Below, piece after piece: positions 17,627 through 49,947 of a stretch of 64,000 nucleotides of DNA. A program made the translations under genes and the position numbers. Source of the stretch: a virus. Under the pieces are notes generated by a model. The model was not told where the DNA came from, made no database searches, and worked only from the letters and a program-made list of their open reading frames with translations. The stretch spans positions 1-64,000 of the IMG/VR virus record IMGVR_UViG_3300042892_002114; one strand, written 5' to 3'. Positions within the stretch are counted from its first letter, which is position 1; each line of letters starts with the position of its first letter.

Positions 17627-18253
17627 TTAACGGGTTTCTGAAAGAATATCACGAATGATATTTTCAATTTTTAGATATTTATTGATGTCTTTGCGATCTT
17701 GATTGCCGCCAATCAATTGTTTTTCACGATTGATGCCTTCGGCAAGATTCATATAAGCACCGCGTGTGCTTGGTGAAGATACAAGGTCAAAACACAATAG
17801 TTCAAAGTCATCTTGTACTTCAACAGTATTTTCATTCACATTGCGAACACTTCCCAAACCGCGACTACTAATACCAATACGAATATTGTTTCTAATCAAA
17901 TCTCTTGCAATATTACCACTTGGTGTAGTTAAAATTTCAATTGTACCAACCACAGTATCACCTTCCCAGTGACATTCTGTGACATTGTGGCATACATTCT
18001 TTAGATTGATGATACTGGATTCCGGATGATCAAGTTCACCCAGAGCGCGACGTTCTTTGATGATTTGTTGATATTTTTCAACTTCACGCTCTAATACTTC
18101 GCGTGGATATACACGACCATTATGATTCTTTTCACCGGCTTTTTGTAATGGACCTTTTAGAACCAATGGACCACCAGTATTTGCTTTTGCTTCTGTAAGC
18201 ATCTGCGGAGTGATATCAAATGGTATAAAATCTACTAATAGTTGTTTGCTCAT
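17627..18253 (-). CDS. 21: Prohead core protease, gp21-like
   Basis: Starting at the ATG at 18253 the product has 208 residues, close to T4 gp21 (212). The family is a serine protease of herpesvirus-assemblin-like fold. ALGELDHPESS gives the catalytic His76, WEGDTVVGTIEILTTPSGN is the typical strand, and RIGISSRGLG gives the catalytic Ser (129/130). NHNGRVYPREVL is the conserved substrate-cleft region. MLTEA at 19-22 is a likely self-cleavage site. It cuts after (I/L)xE in scaffold and capsid proteins during head maturation. The open frame extends 26 codons further upstream, but that part overlaps the previous gene. Confidence 0.92.
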   Translation of the reverse strand: MSKQLLVDFIPFDITPQMLTEAKANTGGPLVLKGPLQKAGEKNHNGRVYPREVLEREVEKYQQIIKERRALGELDHPESSIINLKNVCHNVTECHWEGDTVVGTIEILTTPSGNIARDLIRNNIRIGISSRGLGSVRNVNENTVEVQDDFELLCFDLVSSPSTRGAYMNLAEGINREKQLIGGNQDRKDINKYLKIENIIRDILSETR

Positions 18254-18254
18254 A

Positions 18255-18797
18255 TTATTTACTTTGTATAATGTTTCGTTTAGAAGCAATACCCATAGTT
18301 TGTGGATATTGAATACCACCAACTTGACCACGAGTCAAACTTGCTGGAGCTTGTGATTTTGCTTGAGGAGCATCATTTACTTGTATCTGTGAATCATCCA
18401 GATAATATTCATTTTCTGATTCATTGCCTTCTTTGCCAGTAAATACAATATAATATTTGTCTTTCATATAACGAACTTCAATGTTATTGACCGCGAGGCT
18501 ATATTCTTTTTCAATTTGGCCAACACTACCTTTGGATGCTTTTACAATTACATTCTTTTTTAGAAATGATTTCTTTAGTTCATCGGCCAGTTTTTTTACA
18601 GCAGCATCTTCTTGTTTTTCCAATTCTGTCTTGAAGTTTTTGAACATATTAGAAATATCAATCATTTTGGCATTTGGTGTAGCAGGAGGCGTGACTGCAT
18701 TTGGCGCACGGCCCGGTGACATAGCACCCGCAGCAGATGGATTGTTGCCCCATGTGTCTTCTTTCAAAATCTTTTTAGCAATGTCTGTTAGATTCAT
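18255..18797 (-). CDS. Hypothetical head-operon protein with capsid-targeting-like leader
   Basis: From the ATG at 18797 the product has 180 residues and starts MNLTDIAKKILKEDTWGNNP, with an L-K-E/D site at 11-13 closing an amphipathic helix. A Pro/Ala linker follows, then a helical region (NMFKNFKTELEKQEDAAVKK) and a small beta-rich part (IEVRYMKDKYYIVFTGKEGN). The fold is unknown to me. Its stop lies one base before the protease start, so the two are probably coupled. The longer upstream frame overlaps the next gene and is rejected. It may be an internal or core protein. Confidence 0.5.
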   Translation of the reverse strand: MNLTDIAKKILKEDTWGNNPSAAGAMSPGRAPNAVTPPATPNAKMIDISNMFKNFKTELEKQEDAAVKKLADELKKSFLKKNVIVKASKGSVGQIEKEYSLAVNNIEVRYMKDKYYIVFTGKEGNESENEYYLDDSQIQVNDAPQAKSQAPASLTRGQVGGIQYPQTMGIASKRNIIQSK

Positions 18798-20526: not shown

Positions 20527-23500
20527 TTAGAGTGGTTTATCATCATCAATTAGATTAGACTCATCCATAATGGATTTTTCTTCGGTTATTATTTTCTTAT
20601 TTTTATTATTATACTTGTCCATCAATGACTTTTTTATACTTTTAAGATCTTCGTCCATGCTACCCAATGGGGAACCTCTGTATATATGAGTCGTTCTGCG
20701 GTCTGACTTGGACTTTTCTTTATTTTGTCCGTTGCCAAGAATATCTTCTCCGCGTGTTTTTGTGAATGTATCGCTATATTCTTCTTTTTTGCCGTCTTGA
20801 CTTGGACGAATGCCGCGCTCTCTTTCTTTGCGAGTTTCTTCATCAAGAACTGGCTCATTTGCGTTCTTTTCTTCTTCCAACGGTGGCAAACCACCGGCTT
20901 CACCACCACCACCAGCGTCTTCGCCACCGCCACCAAGGTCTGGTAGACCGCCAGCATCTCCACCACCGCCACCCATGTCTCCACCACCACCACCACCGGA
21001 TTCACCACCAGCTTCACCACCACCGGTGGTCAGAGCGGGATCACTGCCTTCGTCGGTAATTTGTTGAATTCTCCAACCTTCTTTTTTGTCTTTTATGACT
21101 TCTTGTTGCAGATCTTCAACATCATCGCCGGACATATTGAATATATTATTATATAGCCACTTCTTGCTAAACATATTGCTCTCCATCATATCGGCAGCAA
21201 GATTTACTTTATTCTGCCAAATTTCCAACTTTTCTTGTTCAAAGATGGTAGAAGGATTGCTCAATTCCAACTCAAAATCAACCAACGACGCATCTTGATA
21301 TCCTTGTACATACAAATGAACAATAGCAATCTTGGTCAGTTCAGAAACAAGAATACGTTGAATACGACCAATGGTACGAGCAAAACGAACATCTTCTGCT
21401 GCCAATGTAGCCTTGCCAGAAATACTTTCATCATAACCCAAGAATGCTTTTGGAATCTTGAGTGCTGCCATCATTTTATTACGAACATATTCCAAGTCAT
21501 CAATACCAGTAAATTCCATACCAGGTAATGTATCAATCTTTGTGCCACTGTCTCCACCACGAACTGGTAGATAAAAATCTTCAACCATATTATTCAAGTT
21601 GAAACGAAGGTTATAATCACCAGTCTTTTCATCAATATATGGCACTTTTTTAACTTGAGTGATAATCTTTTGCATGGCGGCATCAACTTCACTTGGTGCA
21701 ATATTACCAACATCAATAGAGAAAATACGCTTTTCCGGAGCCTTCATGATACGATGGATCAACATGGCATCTTCCATAAGGCTCAATTGCTTCCATACAC
21801 GACGTGCTGGTTCAATCATGCTCTTGCCATATGGTAAGAAATTGCTATCACTCAACAATCTAAAATGAGCAATTTCAAAGTTTTCATATTCCATACCACC
21901 ACCCATACCATCATGCTGATATTTGACATAGTTAAGATTTTTTGGATCACTACCTTCAACACGAGTCAATTCATATGGACTGATTGGATGCACCAAGTGA
22001 ATGCCATATTCTGGTGATATTTCCAATCTCAAGAAAAAATCACCATATTTACAATTCTTTACAAATACTCCACTGTTTGGCATGATTGAACCATTGGCAT
22101 CTCTTCCACATACTGCAAAATTATGCCTATCATCTTCTCCATTTGGACCAACCACGGTCATGCAATATACGTCGGCGGTTTCATTAACAACTTCAATCCG
22201 AGCAACTTTGTGATTGGACACCACAAATGAATCCATATTTTCTTTTTGAATTCTTCGAAATTCTCTGTTATTAAGAGAAGACCACTCGGAAATAAATTTT
22301 GGATTATTTTTTAAAGATTGATATGCCGCTTGCATGGAGATTGGAGAACCCCCATTAAACTTTACTTCATTGTATATATCCAACATTTTACTTGACCATT
22401 TTACTTTCATTCGAAACTTTGCCATATCAGACCGAACTGGATCTTTCCACATTTCTGTTTTATTCTTTGCCCTGACACTATTGTGAGATTGATGAAGGTC
22501 GGAAGAATTGTATTTAATAAAATCCAGTACCGGTTTTCCTTTCATTTCTTTACTCAATCGCTCGCGTCTAGAACTTGAACGAAGATACTTGTCTATACCC
22601 ATCAAACGTTTTTTTGTCACTTCCGGTGAGTGTAGAATTTTTTTACAATGGTCCGCGTGCAATTGGCGATGTGCAAAGAATTCCATTGGTTCTAAATTTG
22701 GCGGAGTATTGTCGTATTTGTTAAAATTCTTGTGGTGCAAAATTCTATTTTCCTTGTCAGTTTCTATTCCAGACGATTTAGCCACCAACCGATGTGTGTA
22801 GTCATATTTATCGGTTTCTGGATTATATATCATCTCATACTCGTTCATTCCTCCTTTTTTTGGACTCAACTTGCGATAAAATGGCATCAAACTGTCATTT
22901 TCTAACAACTCATCTGCTCTCTTGGTAGTTCCGTTGCGAAGTATGAATGGATGTTCTGGCGCGGTTTCTATTACCGAGCCATCATCAAGTGTCACTTTTA
23001 CAATTTTGTTTGATGTATAATTTTTGTTACACCACACAACTTTACCAGGAACAATCTTTTTAGTATCATCTTGTACAGAATAAACCCAAATTTCCTCACC
23101 GGCGTTTAATCGGTTTGATAGCGACTCTATAGTAATAATCTCACCCGATAGGATTGGAATTGGGGAATCGTATTTGACTGGCATGTTTCTGGTCCAACTC
23201 CACATATTGAACTCAACATTTAAAATATCATAAAACAAATTGTTGAGAATTTTTTTGATGTTTTCATTCTTTGAGCGAATTGTAAGAACATTTCCAAATT
23301 CTGAAGGAACAAGGCACTCATCTGAGTAAATATCCAATGCAGATGCAATGATTGGGTCCATGTCCATTACATCATAATCTCTAAACAATTCTAAACGACT
23401 TGCTTGATATGCCATAGACATATCGCGATTATGCAAGTTGTATGTACTGCTTCTTAATCTATTGAAACGATCACGCAAACTATTTCTGTCTGTTGCGTAT

Positions 23501-23613
23501 TGAATTTCATCTGTGTCTATAACTTTTATCTTTTTTCCGCCAACATGACGCACGAGCACGTCCGTTGAGAACATCTTCTTTAGTCTTGTGAATATATCTT
23601 TTTGTTCTGCCAT
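20527..23613 (-). CDS. 20: Portal vertex protein, gp20-like, interrupted in frame by an intein
   Basis: The full product has 1028 residues; removing the intein (145-520) leaves 652. The N-extein ends LNVEFNMWSWTRNM and the C-extein begins CKYGDFFLRLEISPEYGIHL, the normal continuous sequence of this portal family. PISPYELTRVEGSDPKNLNY, PARRVWKQLSLMEDAMLIHR and PGMEFTGIDDLEYVRNKMMA are typical portal core segments. The portal is the dodecameric ring through which DNA is packaged and the head-to-neck joining site. The C-terminus adds about 150 residues beyond T4 gp20 (524), with a Gly-rich linker and a charged tail. The gene sits between terminase and head-core genes in T4 order. Confidence 0.93.
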   Translation of the reverse strand: MAEQKDIFTRLKKMFSTDVLVRHVGGKKIKVIDTDEIQYATDRNSLRDRFNRLRSSTYNLHNRDMSMAYQASRLELFRDYDVMDMDPIIASALDIYSDECLVPSEFGNVLTIRSKNENIKKILNNLFYDILNVEFNMWSWTRNMPVKYDSPIPILSGEIITIESLSNRLNAGEEIWVYSVQDDTKKIVPGKVVWCNKNYTSNKIVKVTLDDGSVIETAPEHPFILRNGTTKRADELLENDSLMPFYRKLSPKKGGMNEYEMIYNPETDKYDYTHRLVAKSSGIETDKENRILHHKNFNKYDNTPPNLEPMEFFAHRQLHADHCKKILHSPEVTKKRLMGIDKYLRSSSRRERLSKEMKGKPVLDFIKYNSSDLHQSHNSVRAKNKTEMWKDPVRSDMAKFRMKVKWSSKMLDIYNEVKFNGGSPISMQAAYQSLKNNPKFISEWSSLNNREFRRIQKENMDSFVVSNHKVARIEVVNETADVYCMTVVGPNGEDDRHNFAVCGRDANGSIMPNSGVFVKNCKYGDFFLRLEISPEYGIHLVHPISPYELTRVEGSDPKNLNYVKYQHDGMGGGMEYENFEIAHFRLLSDSNFLPYGKSMIEPARRVWKQLSLMEDAMLIHRIMKAPEKRIFSIDVGNIAPSEVDAAMQKIITQVKKVPYIDEKTGDYNLRFNLNNMVEDFYLPVRGGDSGTKIDTLPGMEFTGIDDLEYVRNKMMAALKIPKAFLGYDESISGKATLAAEDVRFARTIGRIQRILVSELTKIAIVHLYVQGYQDASLVDFELELSNPSTIFEQEKLEIWQNKVNLAADMMESNMFSKKWLYNNIFNMSGDDVEDLQQEVIKDKKEGWRIQQITDEGSDPALTTGGGEAGGESGGGGGGDMGGGGGDAGGLPDLGGGGEDAGGGGEAGGLPPLEEEKNANEPVLDEETRKERERGIRPSQDGKKEEYSDTFTKTRGEDILGNGQNKEKSKSDRRTTHIYRGSPLGSMDEDLKSIKKSLMDKYNNKNKKIITEEKSIMDESNLIDDDKPL
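22054..23181 (-). mobile_element. Intein with HNH homing endonuclease, in the portal gene
   Basis: The 376-residue insert (portal residues 145-520) begins with Pro145, with a block-A-like DSPIPILSGE at 149-158. Block B is GSVIETAPEHPF, with His221. An HNH nuclease follows: ILHHKNFNKYDN (291-302), Asn306, and HRQLH (315-319). Block F is DVYCMTV (481-487), then HNF at 497-499. Block G is GVFVKN with terminal Asn520, and Cys521 is the +1 residue. Position 1 is Pro, not Cys or Ser, and block F position 4 is Cys484. This suggests a splicing route starting at the block-F Cys, as in class 3 inteins. The penultimate residue is Lys, not His. Splicing itself is inferred. Confidence 0.92.
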
Positions 23614-23680: not shown

Positions 23681-25336
23681 TCACAGCAGCCATGTTAGGT
23701 CTTCTGTTTTGCTTTGACCAGCCACACCACTTGGACCACCAATGCTCATTTTCCAAGGATTGCTGTAAACTCCATAAGGATTATTACCAGATTTATGCAA
23801 TGCCACCATATTATTTTTTATCTGCTCACTTGAAGTGGAACCTATCTTTGATATTATAAGACGAGTAGATTCATCTGCTTCTTTTCTCAATCGCAATGCT
23901 ACATCTCTTATCCACAATCCAATAGCCATTGACAATACGAGGTCATCATTATAACCAGTCATGGCTTCTGCTTTTGCAGATGATCCACCGGTGTTTTTCC
24001 ATATGAATACATTCAGTTCTTCCAACAATCGCTTGCTGTGTATGATTACTTCTTTATTGCGAATATAACTTTCAAGCTTAGATATTAGAAGCGGTCTGGA
24101 CTTATTGGATGTGGTAAAGCCCGGTGTCATTTTGCGTTCTTCGGCATTTATCTTGTTTGTGGATTGAGATTCTACATCCACATATTGTAGGTCCGATGAA
24201 CTATAAAATAGATTTGGATAGTTGCTGTCTAATACAACTTGTATAACTGCCCATCCTACGTTGGCATTTTCTATAACAAGCAATGCTTGATTATATTCAG
24301 TTGCAATCGTCATAAGCAATCGAGCATAATCACTTGTGGGTATTTTTCCTTTATATTCTGCCACTTGTTCCATTGTTTCTATTTCCAAAACTTGACATGC
24401 ACTAAAGTCGGCGGCGTCTCCTCGACCAACGTCGGCACTTATCATATAACTCTTACCAGCTTCTGGATATTTGTATATCCACAATCCTTTGTCATGTCCT
24501 CGCTTTTCTGTTGGATCAATCGCGTGATTTTTTTCATACCATTCTAGTAGTGGAATATCAATAACGGTATTACCTGATGTGCTAAATTCACAATCACATT
24601 CTTGTGCCGCACCTTTTTCGCCGGACAACTTTGTTTGATCATCGCGCCATTTTTGATCGCGTTCTGGATGATGATTCCACGGTAAGCTAATGCGATTCAT
24701 GTTGTTTAGACCAGATTCACTTTCTGTCCACATTTTGTGAAACCAATTACCCACACCATTCGGTGTAGACAACACAACCGCTTTACCACCAGTAGCCAAT
24801 GTGTATTGTGAAGACAACCAGATTTCGTCGATATTGTCGATGAACGCAGCTTCGTCAATGATCAGCAAAGATGCGGCACCTGAACGACCGGCTGTACCCG
24901 CTGATGAAATAGCAACAATCTTGGAGCCGTTGGATAGTTTCAATGACAGTCGATTGTCTTCTGATTCTCGCAGTTTCAACCAACTTGGTAGATTGTCATT
25001 GGCAAAACGAACTTTGGTTACAATTGCTTTGGATGTTTCTTGAGTGATACTCAAACAAATAATTTCTTTGTTTTCATGAAACACCATGAGCCACAATGAA
25101 TATCCAGCAACTAGTGTAGTAATACCCATCTGACGACTCTTGAGAATAATATTTTGGTCATACTTTATCAAGTCGGCCAAAGTTTTGTCTTGAAATGGAT
25201 AAGTAAGAAATGGCAGTGTGCCGCGAATAGGATGTTGAATCTTCACATACTTCTTCATGAAGTATATTGGGTCTTTGGCACACTTTATATACTCTTCCCG
25301 AATTACATCTCTAATATTTTTTGTCGTATTAGACAT
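23681..25336 (-). CDS. 17: Terminase large subunit, gp17-like
   Basis: The 551-residue protein has the packaging ATPase and headful nuclease domains. Walker A is the T4-type KSRQMGITT (66-74) and Walker B is LLIIDEAAF (158-165, Asp161/Glu162). Motif III is VVLSTPNGVGNWF near 188-199. The RNase H-like nuclease shows SADVGRGDAADFSA (Asp302), a second acidic strand in LLVIENANVG and a third in GYNDDLVLSMAIG. It pumps DNA into the prohead through the portal and cuts concatemers. Length and order (17 then 20) match T4. Its ATG lies inside the end of the upstream gene by 8 bases. Confidence 0.95.
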   Translation of the reverse strand: MSNTTKNIRDVIREEYIKCAKDPIYFMKKYVKIQHPIRGTLPFLTYPFQDKTLADLIKYDQNIILKSRQMGITTLVAGYSLWLMVFHENKEIICLSITQETSKAIVTKVRFANDNLPSWLKLRESEDNRLSLKLSNGSKIVAISSAGTAGRSGAASLLIIDEAAFIDNIDEIWLSSQYTLATGGKAVVLSTPNGVGNWFHKMWTESESGLNNMNRISLPWNHHPERDQKWRDDQTKLSGEKGAAQECDCEFSTSGNTVIDIPLLEWYEKNHAIDPTEKRGHDKGLWIYKYPEAGKSYMISADVGRGDAADFSACQVLEIETMEQVAEYKGKIPTSDYARLLMTIATEYNQALLVIENANVGWAVIQVVLDSNYPNLFYSSSDLQYVDVESQSTNKINAEERKMTPGFTTSNKSRPLLISKLESYIRNKEVIIHSKRLLEELNVFIWKNTGGSSAKAEAMTGYNDDLVLSMAIGLWIRDVALRLRKEADESTRLIISKIGSTSSEQIKNNMVALHKSGNNPYGVYSNPWKMSIGGPSGVAGQSKTEDLTWLL

Positions 25337-35248: not shown

Positions 35249-37801
35249 TTAGAAGGGTTTGAATGTGTACCATTGTCTCCAATATGGCTCGCTAGTGGTT
35301 GAATAGACCTTTAAGTCATTCTTGGCCATAAACTCATTGACGGCTTTTCTGACGCCAAATTTTCCAGCATACACAGGTTCTTTTCCGGAACCTGTCAGCC
35401 AAATATCACCGTCGTCCGGAATATAATCATCGCCACAGAACAACCCACCTTTCTTTACCTTTGGCCACCAAGCTTTCATATCACGCACAACTCCTTCATA
35501 AGAATGATCGGCGTCAATATAAACAAAGTCAAAATGTTCATCTGGAAACATATGAGCACTGGCCGCACTGTCCATGCGAATGATATGAGCACGATTTTGC
35601 CATGGTTTGATGTTCTCACAGGTCTTCACCAAGCAATCGTAATGATACTTATCATCTTGACCGTTCATATCAACATAGCTGCTAAGATGACGCCAAGCAT
35701 CCACTAGATATAGTTGACCTTCGTGCCAACGTTCCAATATTATCTTTGAATACTCTCCTCTGAGTACTCCAATTTCAATTCCTTTTCCGTGTGGAAACAT
35801 ATCATTGACCAATACCGCCAAATCTCGCTTGTCCGGACATCCACGAGCGTCAAGCATTTTTTGCAAATCCGTGTTTCTATCATCAATCTTCACTTCCGAT
35901 TTGGTTGCAAAAATGAACCCACCCTGTGCGTGTAAGCTTTGGACGGTGCAATTGAACCCAGCCGTTTTCAACTGGTTCAATACCAAAGTTGCATCTTTTT
36001 CATAAGTTCTTCCGCCAATGATATGATATTCCATTAGAATATTATCAATCATAGCCAAATCCGAATCATCCATTGAAGCGAACAAATCATATTCAGCGGT
36101 TTCTATGTCCACCTTCATCAAATCAATCTTTTGGATGTTATATTTCGTCACAAACGATTTGAACGATGTTGCATCTACTTTATACGATGTGTCCGAACCA
36201 TTCACATTTGCCACCGATGATACGATGGAATTTTTGCTGTCAACAAAGAATTCAAGTTGACCATCTTTATTGGACATAGCTTTCTCTACAACCACAACTT
36301 CATCTCCAAAAGAATTCTTCAATATTTTCAATGCATCCCTATTTGGTTCAACCGAGTAAACTTTTTGGCATTTTGCCGTGTGTTTTATATATTCTGTCCA
36401 CAGCCCGATATTTGCACCCACGTCAACAACAGTGTTAAATGTCTTTCCGTGTAAATATTTGTCATATATCTTATCAACAAAGAATTCCGTGTAATTCATA
36501 TATGTCGGCTGTGTGTCGTTTTTAAGAATAGATTGATATTTGTTGAATGCGGCGGGCTTTATGCGAAAAGTCTTGGAATCTAGCAATACACCGTTTTGAT
36601 AAAATTCCACCAACAATCCACCAAAGTATGGCTCGGTTTCATAATCAATCACGTGCTTCGGGGTAGGAATAATCCACCATTCCAAATTGGCAGGAAGCTG
36701 TGGATATTCAACAGCCCACACCACAGTGCGAGAATCCAGTTCTTTCACGGAGATGAGTAAATTATCTACGGTTTTATTGGCCGAGAATAGTACCTTGTTG
36801 TCTGTATTGTCGTATTTTACGTTGAAGCGAGTCATAGATTTTTCTGTATATAGGTTTAGGGCTTTTAGTATTTTGTTTAAATTTTCATCCTTGCTATCAT
36901 AATCAAGATATTTGATATTTTCATATTTGTCATACATTCCCATATACACAGGAGAATTATAAATCAACGTTGGTATATTGTATGATATTGCTTCGCGTAT
37001 AACCAATGGACTTGTTTCTTTGTCTCCATTTTCATCCTTGGACACAAACAGAAACAAATCGGCTGCTTGATAAAAATTATCCACATCTTTTCTTTCATTC
37101 CACCATTTGCAGTTGGATGGAAAATCTTTCATCAACGGTTCCCAATAGCTTCTAAAATTGTCTGCTTGATTTCCAATAAAATGAAACTGGATAGGTTGGT
37201 CTTTGAGTATTCTGGCATACTCAATAATTTCTTTTTGGTTTTTTCTTGATGTGAACAAACCAACGTGCACCACATGCTTTTTCTTTGGATCAAGACCCAA
37301 CACTCTCAGTGCTTCTTCTCTTGGCTTTCTGGGGTTGATGAGAATAGGATATTCACAAACTTCGGACGGTACATCAATATCTTTGAGATTTTCTTTTTGA
37401 TATTTGCTCACATATATCAATCGGTCTGGAAAGAATACTTTACCTTTTGGATCAAAGCTGCTGTCATGCGATGTTTCAATGATTTTATATCGTCTATCTT
37501 TGATGTATATCTTTTTGGCAATATCATGGTCCATGAAATATTCTGGCATTTCTTCCAGATGCACAACGTCGGGGTCCAAATCTTTGATTATGTCAACTAT
37601 TTTTGAGCGATCATAGTTCACAGAAATCAACCTGTCTTTGAGAATTTCTTTTATTTTGTTCTTTTGTACTGTGAAACAGCCGTGGTCTGCATACTCAATA
37701 CAATATATCTCGTGGTCTTTGTGCAAGACCTGTATCTTCTTCAACAAAAATTGCGGACAGCCACCCGTCGATAAATGCGGAGTAATATATAAAATTTTCA
37801 T
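35249..37801 (-). CDS. Three-domain fusion: GT4 glycosyltransferase, FkbM methyltransferase, class I methyltransferase
   Basis: Of 850 residues, 1-330 form a GT4 transferase (MKILYITPHLSTGGCPQFLL; KHVVHVGLFTSRKNQKEIIE; SPLVIREAISYNIPTLIYN). Residues 340-430 form a beta-rich insert. Residues 435-640 are FkbM-like (NTVVDVGANIGLWTEYIKHT; KVYSVEPNRDALKILKNSF; DLMKVDIETAEYDLFASM). Residues 650-850 are a second SAM methyltransferase of the Methyltransf_24 type (GKGIEIGVLRGEYSKIILE; DFVYIDADHSYEGVVRDMKA; GGLFCGDDY). It probably extends and methylates the same glycan. It is the first gene of the island, so a promoter is expected in the 192-base gap upstream. Confidence 0.82.
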   Translation of the reverse strand: MKILYITPHLSTGGCPQFLLKKIQVLHKDHEIYCIEYADHGCFTVQKNKIKEILKDRLISVNYDRSKIVDIIKDLDPDVVHLEEMPEYFMDHDIAKKIYIKDRRYKIIETSHDSSFDPKGKVFFPDRLIYVSKYQKENLKDIDVPSEVCEYPILINPRKPREEALRVLGLDPKKKHVVHVGLFTSRKNQKEIIEYARILKDQPIQFHFIGNQADNFRSYWEPLMKDFPSNCKWWNERKDVDNFYQAADLFLFVSKDENGDKETSPLVIREAISYNIPTLIYNSPVYMGMYDKYENIKYLDYDSKDENLNKILKALNLYTEKSMTRFNVKYDNTDNKVLFSANKTVDNLLISVKELDSRTVVWAVEYPQLPANLEWWIIPTPKHVIDYETEPYFGGLLVEFYQNGVLLDSKTFRIKPAAFNKYQSILKNDTQPTYMNYTEFFVDKIYDKYLHGKTFNTVVDVGANIGLWTEYIKHTAKCQKVYSVEPNRDALKILKNSFGDEVVVVEKAMSNKDGQLEFFVDSKNSIVSSVANVNGSDTSYKVDATSFKSFVTKYNIQKIDLMKVDIETAEYDLFASMDDSDLAMIDNILMEYHIIGGRTYEKDATLVLNQLKTAGFNCTVQSLHAQGGFIFATKSEVKIDDRNTDLQKMLDARGCPDKRDLAVLVNDMFPHGKGIEIGVLRGEYSKIILERWHEGQLYLVDAWRHLSSYVDMNGQDDKYHYDCLVKTCENIKPWQNRAHIIRMDSAASAHMFPDEHFDFVYIDADHSYEGVVRDMKAWWPKVKKGGLFCGDDYIPDDGDIWLTGSGKEPVYAGKFGVRKAVNEFMAKNDLKVYSTTSEPYWRQWYTFKPF

Positions 37802-40144: not shown

Positions 40145-43100
40145 TCAAACGTGATTTATATGTGAAAATCCATCAATCTTCCTGATTTCCAGTTGTTTGT
40201 CTACCATGTCTCGCATTGCGTCAATATGACTTATTATTATAATAAAATCAAAATGGGGCTTCAGATAATTAAATAACGAATGTAACATCGGAAAATTGGA
40301 TGCATCCAACGCAGATACCCCTTCGTCAACTACCAAAAAGTTGGAACGCGGTAGATTGCTGATGTTGATCAAGGATACTCTCAAAGCCAAAGCACTAACA
40401 AACTTTTCCATACCAGAGCATAGTTCCAATGGCCATTTTTTGTCATCATATTTGATATATACATTGACATTCTTGCCATCTGTTTCAATACTCATACTAA
40501 ACTCAACCATTTGAGATAATATATTATTTACTTCTTGTTCAATTCTTGGAATGGCATCTGAAATAATTTTATATGGTACGCCATCTTTACCAATTGAAGT
40601 TAGATAATATTGATAAGCAGCAAGCTCGTTTTCATACTCTTCTACTTTTTTGATTTGTTCTTCGATATTTTTTATTTGGTCTGTCAATGACACTTTGCGG
40701 CTATACGCATCCACATATTCTCGCTCAATATTCTTTAGTTTTGATGTTATAGTAGCAACATCATTTTTCAAATCGTAAACAGATGATTCAACCAGTTTGT
40801 TGCTTTCTACAATTTCTTTGGACTTTTCATACAACTCAACCAGATTGTCAATATCAACTATTCTATTAGAGTTTTTAGAAATTAAATTATTGAGATTGGA
40901 TTTTTCCAGTTCTTTCTTGGAAATGAATGCTGTGAGTGTATTGATAGTTTCTTTGAGCAGCACACTTTGTTCATATTGAGCCACAAATGGTTCAACTTCT
41001 ATAATCTGTGTTTTGATGGTTGATATGGCATCAAACAGTTCTCTTGCATCAGTTTTGTCGGATTCCAAACTATCTTTAGCAGATATAGCATCTTTTACAA
41101 ACGCATTATCACAGCAATATTCACAATTTGGATCATATTTGTGGTTGGATAGATGTTCTATTTTCTTGAGTTTTTCTTTGACCACGAGCTTAAATTTTTC
41201 CAATTCTTGCTCAAGACGAGTTTTTTGACGAACAAAACTTGCATGCTTGTCCGATTTTTCTTTTAGATCATCTGGAAATGCAGATAGTTTATTGGAAGCA
41301 TCCACATATTCTTTTTTCTTTGACTCTGTGTTTGTGTCAATAACCGAAATAGCATCAACAGATTGACTATTTTTTGTTTCTAAAGTTTCGCGCTCTTTTT
41401 TTAGAGCAAATACATTTGTTGGCACATTTTCAAGTTTTATAATCTTGGCTTGTTGTTCAACGATTTTATTATCAAGTTCATTCTTCTTTGATGAATATTG
41501 ATCGCGTTGACCAGTCAAATCAATAAGTTTGGACTCTGCCAATCCCAAATCATTTTTATTGGACTCAATCTTGACTTGATTGTTTTCTTTGTTGAATGAC
41601 TTGATGGCACCTGTTAGTTCTTTTAGTTTGTCATTGCCCTTGGCCACAAGTTTATCAAACACATTTAGACCAATGAACTGACACAACAAATCCTTGCGTT
41701 CAGTTTGACCCATTTCAACAAACGACCCTTGATTGCCTTGTAATGCAAGTGAAGTTAGTACAAAGTCATCATAATCGCCGATATAATCACGAATGATTTC
41801 ATTTGTGCTTCTGCGAGCTTCACTGTTGAGGCTAATCTTTTCGTCTTTCTCCATCTTATAGAAGTTTACATCAACTTTTACATTGCCTTTTTTATCTCTG
41901 ATGCCTTTGCGCTCAATGATATATTGAATATCATTTATCTCAAATGTGAACTTGCCATGAAAAGACATTTTTTGTGAGTTCATCACATGAGTTGCTTTGA
42001 ATGCTCTGGCACTTTTATCAAATGCTGTAAAGCATAATGCGTCCATCAATGATGATTTTCCGCTCGCATTATTTGCGAACAAACCATACACATCTTCCAG
42101 TTTAGTAAAGTCAATCACATTGTTTTCACCATAACTAAACATATTACTGAACTCAAACTTGATTGGCTTCCAACGAATGTTGCGTGAAGTGTCATCTTTG
42201 CTCAAATCAGCATTGAGGTCTTTGTTGATTTTATGAACAGACTCAAGTGTGCCATCGTCCATAATATCTGGATATTTAGCTTTGAGTGCTTCACTAATAA
42301 GTTTATTTTGATAATCAACATTGCCAATCTGACTCAAGTTGGCAGCAGCTTGAACACTTACAACTTTAGAAGCATCGTCGCCATCAACTCGCATATAAAT
42401 AATGTCGCTGATTTCATGCGTCTTTTTGATTTCATTTACTACCTTTTTTAGTTCAGTAGCAATAGTTTCTTTGCAACGCACACGAAGTTTTGGCTTCTTG
42501 GGCATTGTGCTTATATCAGTCATCAACTTGCCGTCATCAATATCAATAGTGAAATAACCATAATCATTTGGTATTTCTACATGCTTGTATGCTCTGTTCT
42601 TTATATCCCACAAACAAATGCCGTGACCAAGCAATGCTTCGCCATGATTTTGTTGAATAACCGAACCAGCATAACGAATGATTGGTTTTTCTGATACTGG
42701 ATCGCACATTTGCAGATTTTGTGCCAAATGAATATCACCCAACAATGCCATATCATGACCATCAAACATATCATTCATGATACTCTTGTTGGTTACGGTA
42801 TAACCCACATCAGTCTTGGCGTCAAATACACCACCATGAAATAAAGCAATCTTTGTATCAAACTCCGTCTTGATTTTCTTGGTCACATCTTTCATTTTTA
42901 TAAATGAAGTATGGTCGGTGAAAATAGACATGTTATTTATAAGAATATTAGCAAATGAATACAACTTGCTTTCTTTTAGATAATAAAGATTGTCATGAGC
43001 CAAATTTTCTACAATAGGAGTCAAACTATCCAATCTCGTTGTGTTTGTGAGAAGACAATCATGATTGCCCGCAATAACAATCGTAGGACGCAAATCAGAT

Positions 43101-43348
43101 AAACTCTTTAGAAGGTCGCTCATGAGTTGAACACATTCGGGCGAAAGGTCAACTTTGCTGTGTGTGAGGTCTCCCGCTATAACAACCAATGTGTTTACTG
43201 GTGTCTTTTTAACCTCTTCATACACCTTCCCAAACACTTCACGATATTCTTCATGGCGTTTGGTCAAACGAATATGAATGTCCGCCATATGAACAATATA
43301 ATCCACTCTGGTTAGATTGGTGTTTAGTTTCTCAAATGTATCTATCAT
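40145..43348 (-). CDS. 47-46: Fused gp47-gp46 (Mre11-Rad50 / SbcD-SbcC) recombination nuclease
   Basis: T4 makes gp47 (nuclease) and gp46 (ATPase) from separate genes; here one 1067-residue frame holds both. Residues 15-330 are a calcineurin-like phosphoesterase: MADIHIRL (Asp23, His25), VVIAGDLTHSK (Asp60), VIAGNHDCL (94-97), LGDIHLAQ. Residues 392-1067 are Rad50-like: FSYGENNVIDF, then Walker A GLFANNASGKSSLMDAL (423-437), long coiled coils with a zinc hook C-E-Y-C at 742-745, the signature LCSGMEKFVSALALR, and Walker B FLVVDEGVSALD. The complex resects DNA ends for recombination-dependent replication. No stop or frameshift is seen at the junction near residues 370-390. Confidence 0.93.
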   Translation of the reverse strand: MIDTFEKLNTNLTRVDYIVHMADIHIRLTKRHEEYREVFGKVYEEVKKTPVNTLVVIAGDLTHSKVDLSPECVQLMSDLLKSLSDLRPTIVIAGNHDCLLTNTTRLDSLTPIVENLAHDNLYYLKESKLYSFANILINNMSIFTDHTSFIKMKDVTKKIKTEFDTKIALFHGGVFDAKTDVGYTVTNKSIMNDMFDGHDMALLGDIHLAQNLQMCDPVSEKPIIRYAGSVIQQNHGEALLGHGICLWDIKNRAYKHVEIPNDYGYFTIDIDDGKLMTDISTMPKKPKLRVRCKETIATELKKVVNEIKKTHEISDIIYMRVDGDDASKVVSVQAAANLSQIGNVDYQNKLISEALKAKYPDIMDDGTLESVHKINKDLNADLSKDDTSRNIRWKPIKFEFSNMFSYGENNVIDFTKLEDVYGLFANNASGKSSLMDALCFTAFDKSARAFKATHVMNSQKMSFHGKFTFEINDIQYIIERKGIRDKKGNVKVDVNFYKMEKDEKISLNSEARRSTNEIIRDYIGDYDDFVLTSLALQGNQGSFVEMGQTERKDLLCQFIGLNVFDKLVAKGNDKLKELTGAIKSFNKENNQVKIESNKNDLGLAESKLIDLTGQRDQYSSKKNELDNKIVEQQAKIIKLENVPTNVFALKKERETLETKNSQSVDAISVIDTNTESKKKEYVDASNKLSAFPDDLKEKSDKHASFVRQKTRLEQELEKFKLVVKEKLKKIEHLSNHKYDPNCEYCCDNAFVKDAISAKDSLESDKTDARELFDAISTIKTQIIEVEPFVAQYEQSVLLKETINTLTAFISKKELEKSNLNNLISKNSNRIVDIDNLVELYEKSKEIVESNKLVESSVYDLKNDVATITSKLKNIEREYVDAYSRKVSLTDQIKNIEEQIKKVEEYENELAAYQYYLTSIGKDGVPYKIISDAIPRIEQEVNNILSQMVEFSMSIETDGKNVNVYIKYDDKKWPLELCSGMEKFVSALALRVSLINISNLPRSNFLVVDEGVSALDASNFPMLHSLFNYLKPHFDFIIIISHIDAMRDMVDKQLEIRKIDGFSHINHV

Positions 43349-46566: not shown

Positions 46567-49500
46567 TTATGTATCAAAACGGACAATAATATTGACTGGC
46601 CAATCAATTAAATTTTTTATAGGACGGCCAAGTTTGCCAACTGCCACAAGTTGATTGTCTTGATATAATCCAATCGTAGTAACACATGGTGACAAGAATG
46701 AACCAGTTGCGTCATATGATGAACTATATTGATAACCAATAAATTCTGGATTTACTCTGAATGGATTGTTGCCGCAATATGGATTTAGATAATCTTCTAT
46801 ATCTTTGACATATCTACGAGTTGAATCTGATGTGAGATATTGTGCCAAAGTACTTGGATTTAATCTCTTCAACACATATAGTGCCAATATATAACCATCA
46901 TTCATGTTGATTTTTCCATCACCATCAATATCCAATAAACCAGTATCATATAAATTATTTGTTATAAACATATATGCAGTGTTGTTGAATGCTGACAAAT
47001 ATGAATATTTGATGCTGGATGCCGTATCATCTTCTTGTTGTAACACATCTTCGGATTCTGTTTGAAGAATATCATTTGCCCACCAACTAAAATCGGTGTT
47101 TGTGTCTTGTTCCAAAACAATGCCATTATCATCCAACACATAATCTGCATAAAACTTCTTGAGTTTCAAGTATCTCATGATAAGATCTACATCTTTATAA
47201 TCAAACACACCATCTTGATTTACATCAAATGTAAGAGGGTTTGGCTGCAATGAAGTTGGGTTGGTACTATAATTAAATTCACCCGGTCTTATTGACACAA
47301 GATATTCATGTTCATATATTGTATGAGCACCTTGATAATCCAAAGTAAATCCGCGAGAACCAGTTCCTGTCATCACATCATGATACATTGAAGATGTATT
47401 GGTGATGGCCAAATGTCCATTCTTATAAAACACATTGCCAATCTTTGGATCAACTTCATATTTGTTCATGTCATACACAAACACAGAACCAGAATATGAT
47501 GATGAAAATGAACCAGATTGATTTATTGGGTCCAACGCATCATTGCAAACGGAACCAACCACCAAATTCTGCCAGTCTCCACCCGCCATTATGCTTCCGG
47601 ACCATGCACAGAATGAATATGTAAAAGGCGATACACTCTGTGTGACAAAGTGGTTGGTGTTGCCATTACTTCCGCTGTACCAGATATCCATGTAATAATC
47701 TCCGTAGTAAAGAACGGAATCTACGGTGTATGAATAAGAACGAATGGAAGGAGCTAAATTTACGATTGGTGCTCCGACGCACATAAAATCGGATGCGATA
47801 GAAACAGAATATCCGTAGATATTGTATGGATGATTTTCTTCTTTGTTTCTTCTCAATTCACCGGCTCTATACCAGTTGTCATTTGTAAAATCAAAATTAT
47901 ACAATGTCACTCTACCCAACACAGAATCTAAAGAAGCAGAAGATTCATATGCATAATTTTCCAATATATAAGAACCGCTAGAATATACCACAGTTCTACC
48001 CAAAGTATCTGGTAATGAAGTAACTGCGGCTGTTGTACCGTCAATAGATACGGCATGTCCAAAATTATTATTGGTCAGATATTCTCTGTTTCCAAATGTT
48101 TTTGTCAGAAGGTCATATTGCCACGCCAAACATGCTTCATCATATCTATATGTGTATAAATATGCCGCGCCCAAAATCATAGCATTTCCTGTATATCCAT
48201 AGTATGGCTTAAAACCTTTATCGGCTTTGCACCCGATAATCAAGTTTTTTCCGCTTATATCCACGCTGTAACCAAACATGTCGGACACAATTGTATCGGA
48301 CGCATCGACGGAATATTCCGGAGCATCAATATTCAAATCACCATAACCCGAAGTTGCGGTGAATAGTTGATTTTGGCTCCAAGATGCAGTTGGGCATGCG
48401 GATAGAGATGCTGAGTGATAAGAACATGTGAACACAGCCGCGTAGCCTTTACCGGGTTTGTTTGTTCCTACAACCAATCGGTTTGAATCTAAAGATACAC
48501 ACCATCCAAAGTTGTCACCGACAGACTGATTGCTTGGAGTGATTGTAGTTTCATACACCCACGAATAGTTTCCGGAAACAAATGTTGGTGTATAACTTTG
48601 TGACGCAATATATGAACCGGTTTGCAGTTCTTTGCAAAAATCTTCTTGTGTAACAACCTGCATCCACACGGAACCGGTGTTGATACTTTGACATGGATAT
48701 TCAGCATCCATGTATCTTTTCTTTCTGTACAAATATACTGCACCCTTACTGCCGCTAACACCTGTAGCACCAACCGCTAATATATCATTGTCTATTGCAA
48801 CCGACGCGCCAAATCTGTCTCCGTTGCTTTTTCCTTTTAGAATATTAATTATTCCCCAATTATCTTCGCCACCCTTGTATCTGTCATAAACACACACAAA
48901 ACCTGGATACATACTTGAAGAACATACTGAACCCGTTGGAGAACCAACCGCCAAAAAATTATCTCGCACACACACAGATGTTCCAAAAGAATCTTTAAAA
49001 TATGACGATGTGTCTGTCAAACTTTGAGTAAATGGAAAATGAATCTTTGCAATTGGACGATGATGACCCCGAGTTTCATCATACTTGAATAACGCGGCAT
49101 GACCAATGCGAGCATCGGATAAACTATAAGCATCCATAGATGAACCAACCGCAACATATTTGGACCAACAACTCACAGATTCACCAAAGTGTTCATTTTC
49201 GGGAAAAAATAAATCCTGATGACTTCCTGTGTTTAATACCCACTCAGATCCACTTGATACTGGTGGAACATATGTTACTTGAAGCCCCATCGCCATATAT
49301 TGTTTGGCATTAATATAATTAACATATTGCGTGGAACCATTACTAAATGTTACATAAAATAAACCACTACCCGTGTCCCATTGTGAAATTGATACGTGAG
49401 TGTCTCTTATTGCTTGTATCTCTGCCGTTGATGGAAAGTGCGAACCGGTTGCATACAAGTTGGTGTAACCATCGTCATGAATTTTTAGAGTCTGGTGAAT

Positions 49501-49947
49501 ATCAGAATCATCCACAAGTTTAACCGTATTTGGTATAACTTTTTCACCATATACATTATGTTTCAATGTGGCAGTGATGATGCGATCATGAATTTCACGA
49601 ACTTCTTCTTTTCCAGTTTTTGGATCTTGTGTATATTCTTCAACACCAAACAACTTGATTGGTTCGCCGACATTCTTATAAAACATAGCATCGGTCATAC
49701 TATGTATATTTCTGGCATATTTACCAGAAGAATTTATTGGCTCATTGGTTGATACATAGTATATGCTACCAGACGGATAAAATGGAGTTGAAAGTTTAAG
49801 ACCTTCATTCACTTCCATTCTTCCATTATAATAAGTGCTATCACCATATGTGTTTACGCTCGCAGAATCAATGCTTTGTAATGTCCAATGCTTGAACGTG
49901 CTAAATGGTCTTACTGTGATGTCTCCCGCAGTGAACTGCTTAATCAT
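46567..49947 (-). CDS. Tail protein with integrin-like FG-GAP propeller and a dockerin pair
   Basis: The first 60 residues (MIKQFTAGDITVRPFSTFKH) and last 40 (CVTTIGLYQDNQLVAVGKLG, ending in IIVRFDT) match the ends of the neighbouring 382-residue protein, so the two are paralogues. Inserted here are seven FG-GAP-type blades from about residue 240 to 830. Each begins FGxSV and continues to (L/V)AVG, e.g. FGASVAIDNDILAVGATGVS. This fits a seven-bladed propeller as in integrin alpha chains. Residues 906-930 and 1006-1029 (FDVNQDGVFDYKDVDLIMRY; DIDGDGKINMNDGYILALY) are calcium-binding dockerin type I repeats. No phage cohesin partner is seen. A host-surface or polysaccharide-complex binding role is inferred. 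Confidence 0.8.
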   Translation of the reverse strand: MIKQFTAGDITVRPFSTFKHWTLQSIDSASVNTYGDSTYYNGRMEVNEGLKLSTPFYPSGSIYYVSTNEPINSSGKYARNIHSMTDAMFYKNVGEPIKLFGVEEYTQDPKTGKEEVREIHDRIITATLKHNVYGEKVIPNTVKLVDDSDIHQTLKIHDDGYTNLYATGSHFPSTAEIQAIRDTHVSISQWDTGSGLFYVTFSNGSTQYVNYINAKQYMAMGLQVTYVPPVSSGSEWVLNTGSHQDLFFPENEHFGESVSCWSKYVAVGSSMDAYSLSDARIGHAALFKYDETRGHHRPIAKIHFPFTQSLTDTSSYFKDSFGTSVCVRDNFLAVGSPTGSVCSSSMYPGFVCVYDRYKGGEDNWGIINILKGKSNGDRFGASVAIDNDILAVGATGVSGSKGAVYLYRKKRYMDAEYPCQSINTGSVWMQVVTQEDFCKELQTGSYIASQSYTPTFVSGNYSWVYETTITPSNQSVGDNFGWCVSLDSNRLVVGTNKPGKGYAAVFTCSYHSASLSACPTASWSQNQLFTATSGYGDLNIDAPEYSVDASDTIVSDMFGYSVDISGKNLIIGCKADKGFKPYYGYTGNAMILGAAYLYTYRYDEACLAWQYDLLTKTFGNREYLTNNNFGHAVSIDGTTAAVTSLPDTLGRTVVYSSGSYILENYAYESSASLDSVLGRVTLYNFDFTNDNWYRAGELRRNKEENHPYNIYGYSVSIASDFMCVGAPIVNLAPSIRSYSYTVDSVLYYGDYYMDIWYSGSNGNTNHFVTQSVSPFTYSFCAWSGSIMAGGDWQNLVVGSVCNDALDPINQSGSFSSSYSGSVFVYDMNKYEVDPKIGNVFYKNGHLAITNTSSMYHDVMTGTGSRGFTLDYQGAHTIYEHEYLVSIRPGEFNYSTNPTSLQPNPLTFDVNQDGVFDYKDVDLIMRYLKLKKFYADYVLDDNGIVLEQDTNTDFSWWANDILQTESEDVLQQEDDTASSIKYSYLSAFNNTAYMFITNNLYDTGLLDIDGDGKINMNDGYILALYVLKRLNPSTLAQYLTSDSTRRYVKDIEDYLNPYCGNNPFRVNPEFIGYQYSSSYDATGSFLSPCVTTIGLYQDNQLVAVGKLGRPIKNLIDWPVNIIVRFDT

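Follow-up and report, generated by a model that had tools for sequence, protein, structure and literature searches.

The window, i.e., the whole 64,000-nucleotide stretch of DNA analyzed here, is part of a 91,314-base virus record. On its minus strand, the ORF at 20527-23613 encodes a portal protein, as indicated by highly significant matches to Pfam (Portal_T4, PF07230, E 5.2e-65) and PHROG (phrog_213, portal, E 6e-61). T4-type portals are structural proteins that are required for packaging. The frame is interrupted by an intein; the features of this locus are given below, where the Pro1 clade denotes the group of inteins starting with proline to which the window intein belongs.

20527..23613 (-), portal protein (gp20-like) precursor, T4-type, 1028 aa; predicted spliced product 652 aa
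23182..23613 (-), N-extein, residues 1-144, ending with TRNM, which abuts CKYGD directly in 77 intein-free loci
22054..23181 (-), intein, 376 aa, Pro1 to Asn376 (precursor residues 145-520), recognized by PF14890, TIGR01445 and a Hint fold model
23143..23181 (-), block A, PVKYDSPIPILSG; Pro1 codon 23179-23181; Pro1 in 59/59 clade members
23029..23034 (-), Trp50-Cys51 pair; Trp50 in 59/59 and Cys51 in 56/59 members of the Pro1 clade
22939..22980 (-), block B, residues 68-81; Ala74 at B7, His77 at B10, Phe79 at B12
22615..22839 (-), HNH endonuclease region, intein residues 115-189; phrog_21964 (E 9e-10), phrog_7545 (E 2.5e-9)
22114..22173 (-), block F, DVYCMTVVGPNGEDDRHNFA; Cys340 at F4 (precursor Cys484, codon 22162-22164); F13-type His353
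22054..22074 (-), block G, SGVFVKN; Val374 at G5, Lys375 at G6 (penultimate), Asn376 at G7
22051..22053 (-), Cys at +1, residue 1 of the C-extein; portal residue, Cys in all compared intein-free portals
20530..22053 (-), C-extein, 508 aa, beginning with CKYGDFF
23681-25336, terminase large subunit, adjoining the portal gene
17627-18331, prohead protease (Peptidase_S77), near the portal gene

Elsewhere on the minus strand of the window, a single ORF (40145-43348) combines a metallophosphatase domain with a subsequent SMC-type N domain and looks like a fused SbcD/SbcC (T4 gp47/gp46) protein. Another single ORF (35249-37801) encompasses a glycosyltransferase and two methyltransferase domains (FkbM type and Methyltransf_24), and a large ORF (46567-49947) contains FG-GAP repeats along with a weak dockerin match.

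Boundaries and identity of the insert

The insert starts with PVKYDSPI and ends with SGVFVKN, which is followed by CKYGDFF; the earlier note, made from the sequence alone, had split the portal frame between TRNM and CKYGDFF by 376 residues, and this placement is exact to the base. When the C-extein was used to search viral contigs, 80 portal loci were retrieved. At least 77 related portals lack the insert and join [TV]RN[MLTV] directly to CKYGD, and 7 loci carry a Pro1 insert at the TRNM/CKYGD site, some of these being one contig fetched twice. Among the intein-free portals is that of the locus L008, a protein of 652 residues that shows 99.8% amino acid identity and 98.0% base identity to the window portal. 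Because the empty sites, L008 included, join TRNM and CKYGD directly, the insert boundaries are unambiguous, and proline is residue 1. The insertion is in frame, exactly absent from relatives, and its removal leaves a contiguous host protein. No shifted junction restores TRNM-CKYGD, given that the two ends present Met vs Asn and Pro vs Cys, and this closes off the alternative of another N-junction with Cys or Ser. From the distribution of window-L008 differences around the intein, we claim only a recombination boundary: a clean co-conversion tract around the intein was considered and rejected, as the differences nearly end ~690 bases downstream and the upstream divergence continues for 4 kb.

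The profile search proposed in the earlier note confirmed the identity of the insert, with scores above the cut-offs for both Pfam Intein_splicing (PF14890, 57.9 bits, cut-off 35.8) and NCBIfam intein_Nterm (TIGR01445, 40.6 bits, cut-off 24.5, match beginning at residue 2). The predicted structure (one model, mean pLDDT 88.9) is a Hint fold, and inteins head its matches in the PDB (lowest E 4e-8; E <=0.001 for 40 chains). The insert contains blocks A, B, F and G, HisB10, a terminal Asn and one of the residues Cys, Ser or Thr at +1, as an intein should, and the HNH nuclease noticed previously was recovered by phrog_21964. At residue 1, it has Pro and not the Cys, Ser or Thr of class 1 inteins. 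The class 3 marks are only partly present: residue 1 is compatible as far as the presence of Pro goes and F4 is Cys340, within the motif DVYCMTV, but TrpB12 is replaced by Phe79 and ThrG5 by Val374. In class 3 inteins, +1 is usually Ser or Thr and rarely Cys; it is Cys in the window. All these residues, together with the penultimate Lys, had been read correctly in the earlier note.

The window intein and the intein of the locus L165 share 94.9% of their residues (dN 0.021, dS 0.35, dN/dS ~0.06), indicating purifying selection on the intein, whereas dS between the exteins is saturated. The intein was recently transferred between phages, after the portals had diverged.

A clade of portal inteins starting with proline

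A combination of profile and motif scans identified 59 distinct Pro1 inteins that could be read at both ends, a count that omits a few hits cut by contig ends as well as L199, the end of which reads as Gln. Thus, the description of the window intein as non-canonical stands but it is not a single oddity: the clade comprises at least 59 distinct Pro1 inteins that occupy three sites in phage portal genes, namely, RN[MLTV]|CKYGD (site a), typically LRYNx[ML]|[SCT]xxxD (site b, the main site) and LPGG[YF]|TGDID (site c). Identity to the window intein ranges from 95% down to 33% among 48 of these. Pro1, Trp50, HisB10, CysF4, HisF13 and the terminal Asn are each present in 59/59 sequences, and B7 is Ala in 49/59. 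The suggestion of a variant subtype fits the conservation pattern, TrpB12 being found in 0/59 and ThrG5 in 1/59 members. By contrast, the penultimate Lys and the +1 Cys, also highlighted in the earlier note, do occur in the window but are not signatures of the clade, since both vary: +1 is C in 25, S in 29 and T in 5 sequences, and the penultimate residue (G6), although never His (0/59), is Ser in 18/59. A second conserved cysteine, Cys51, which that note did not mention, is present in 56/59 Pro1 inteins compared to 0/64 other inteins; the remaining three sequences (L237, L238 and L250), which form the deepest branch of the clade, have Val51 and retain CysF4.

The constancy of CysF4 is not a selection artefact, because two of the three scan sets were picked by motifs outside block F; the third set was chosen by DVYCMTV itself and is not independent evidence on this position. 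Ten Pro1 forms are only 157-249 aa long, with little or no room for a nuclease, and nevertheless keep the splicing residues, which implies that splicing itself is under selection, independently of homing.

Several loci show additional complexity. The portal genes of L112 and L176 each carry two Pro1 inteins, one at site b and another at site c, and +1 of the latter is Thr. In L199, an intein with Pro1 and CysF4 starts at residue 668 of a minus-strand ORF, its apparent last residue being Gln (MFQ|S) rather than Asn. In L125 (2462-3931) and L126 (3501-4970), the joined frame of a Pro1-type match in the portal gene is interrupted by seven stops, and these copies are hence broken or frameshifted. 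Finally, L004/L005 (contigs identical to L098/L099 and L188/L198) encode four inteins in one portal ORF, three with Cys1 and AspF4 and one with Pro1 and CysF4, and the neighboring terminase likewise contains intein blocks.

Phylogeny and possible origin

For comparison, we used 34 Cys1/Ser1 relatives, sampled irrespective of whether F4 is Cys, 21 Cys1 inteins chosen by their block F motif DTGCITV and, from phage genomes, 9 canonical class 3 inteins; a mycobacterial DnaB intein fragment served solely as a query to retrieve class 3 sequences. HisB10 is present in all 123 aligned rows. The canonical class 3 inteins have TrpB12, CysF4, ThrG5 and HisG6 in 9/9 sequences each, and one of them (L225) likewise begins with Pro. 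Among the 34 Cys1/Ser1 relatives, F4 is D in 19, T in 9, C in 3 and N in 3, whereas ThrB7 is nearly invariant (32/34, and 53/55 of all Cys1/Ser1 rows). Thus, F4 is free to vary in the Cys1 relatives but the pairing of Pro1 with CysF4 holds in 59/59 cases. CysF4 in class 1 inteins is already known (PMC4031507), and the Cys1/CysF4 state is common at portal site b: the inteins of the loci L253-L295 (e.g., L278, L279 and L260) combine Cys1 with a block F Cys (DTGCITV) and ThrB7, and mostly have W-A at positions 50-51.

Trees were built for three data sets after masking the trait columns. The Pro1 clade forms one branch in each (bootstrap/SH-aLRT 100/96, 94/90 and 97/87), so that Pro1 appeared once in the tree and its link with CysF4 is a single event that was subsequently retained, not many independent ones. 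In the best trees, the Pro1 clade groups with class 1 HNH inteins, and the canonical class 3 inteins form one branch behind a long edge (100/99-100/100). Although the tree shape favors an origin independent of class 3, we did not retain this as a conclusion because a joint clade of Pro1 and class 3 inteins is not rejected in any of the three AU tests (p 0.29, 0.30 and 0.41). Judging from these trees, a second origin of splicing by a block F Cys is possible. In particular, such splicing may have evolved a second time inside the class 1 HNH portal inteins, with CysF4 arising beside a working Cys1, followed by the replacement of Cys1 by Pro and of ThrB7 by Ala and the gain of C51, without a stage that carried the W and T marks; we put this scenario forward tentatively, at slightly below an even chance. 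The Cys1/CysF4 inteins at site b, 21 of which were sampled, are plausible intermediates between class 1 and class 3.

Probable splicing route and relationship to known inteins

Taken together, the sequence features make it quite probable that this HNH intein of a T4-type portal gene is active and mobile and follows a class-3-type splicing route in which the W and T marks are absent. As first nucleophile, Cys484 (intein Cys340) is the strongest candidate. Assisted by HisB10, Cys340 would attack the Met144-Pro145 bond and hold the N-extein as a thioester, from which the N-extein would pass to the +1 Cys; Asn376 would then cyclize, probably helped by the His of block F and not by one at the penultimate position, and ligation of the exteins would give the 652-residue portal. 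We infer every one of these chemical steps, and capsid assembly would be expected to depend on them.

The class-3-type route is favored because, in the Pro1 clade, Ser and Thr are freely used at +1, CysF4 is fixed and ThrB7 is lost. The Thr at B7 tunes the N-junction in class 1 inteins, and class 3 inteins have no fixed residue at this position (PMC7891396). Absence of these two marks does not necessarily bar this route: one class 3 intein that has Met at B12 was shown to splice fast, and replacement of its Thr by Ala slowed splicing ~tenfold (PMC7891396); in the literature searched, we found no experimentally tested class 3 intein that lacks both TrpB12 and ThrG5. A survey of 1701 class 3 sequences, defined by the absence of Cys1 and the presence of Cys at F4, reports that deviations from the marks are rare (6.1% for W and 4.6% for T) (PMC7891396). 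By this loose definition, the Pro1 clade belongs to class 3; by the WCT motif it does not, as the W and T marks are missing.

In a class 2 route, the type seen in KlbA inteins, the N-junction would be attacked by the +1 Cys itself, with CysF4 in an assisting role only. Such a route is compatible with the non-nucleophilic residue 1 and the +1 Cys of the window as well as with the penultimate position, which is not His and resembles that of KlbA inteins in the 18 relatives with Ser at G6. However, Ser or Thr occupies +1 in 34/59 clade members with everything else kept, i.e., in over half of the family, and +1 is thus not specialized for attack by Cys. Furthermore, the class 2 route is known only from KlbA orthologs and needs Asp at F4 (PMC4031507), whereas the host protein here is a portal and F4 is always Cys, and a class 3 intein that splices with its natural Cys at +1 was shown to be incapable of class 2 splicing (PMC5222942). 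We therefore consider this route unlikely.

The strong association of Cys51 with Pro1 raises the alternative that Cys51 rather than Cys340 is the first nucleophile, or that the two form a redox-controlled pair. Cys51 initially appeared invariant (50/50) but the earliest-branching Pro1 inteins, with Val51 and CysF4, exclude it as the sole nucleophile required across the clade, and the nucleophile position of class 3 inteins is established as CysF4. This reading is accordingly a very improbable one; Cys51 is possibly an auxiliary residue or a redox partner of Cys340. That the intein is splicing-defective, i.e., decayed or cleavage-only, could be suspected because its residue 1 differs from that of class 1 inteins and its B12 and G5 residues differ from those of class 3, but is highly unlikely in view of the open frame, the low dN/dS, the conservation of all catalytic positions in 59 sequences including the minimal forms, and the cost that lost splicing should have in a gene needed for packaging.

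In the literature searched, which was covered in part, we found no earlier report of the Pro1 portal intein clade. These inteins are of interest for how class 3 splicing arose and for what it minimally requires. In a passage of PMC3196547 that cites Tori and Perler 2011, class 3 is proposed to descend from a class 1 intein of a phage through loss of the nucleophile; according to the opposing view (PMC7664689), a direct descent of class 3 from class 1 is impossible, since the WCT motif could not be grafted successfully. Portal genes hold natural Cys1/CysF4 and Pro1/CysF4 inteins at one site, with related splicing blocks, and accordingly this question can be tested by mutating natural pairs. The Pro1 clade would widen the class 3 signature such that CysF4 and HisB10 suffice and W and T are not defining. 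The natural minimal forms, which precede Cys, Ser or Thr, are useful for protein ligation.

Among the known systems, class 3 inteins (MP-Be DnaB, Dra Snf2, Msm/Mch DnaB1 and Bvi IcmO type) share with the Pro1 clade the lack of an N-terminal nucleophile, CysF4, HisB10 and the terminal Asn; the window intein differs in lacking TrpB12, ThrG5 and the penultimate His, and the Pro1 inteins always have HisF13 and form a separate clade. The split class 3 intein AceL NrdHF, for which the class 3 mechanism was demonstrated and HisB10 is essential, also lacks TrpB12 and the penultimate His; unlike the window intein, which is contiguous and contains an HNH domain, it is split, keeps ThrG5, has Ala1 and Ser at +1, and lacks HisF13 (PMC7891396). 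The Cys1 HNH portal inteins with DTGCITV are similar to the Pro1 inteins in the splicing blocks, the main insertion site, CysF4 and, often, Lys at G6, but have Cys1, ThrB7 and Ala51 and are expected to be class 1. The class 2 KlbA inteins resemble the window intein in the non-nucleophilic residue 1 and the Cys at +1, but have AspF4 and reside in an unrelated host protein, whereas the Pro1 clade combines CysF4 with a variable +1 residue.
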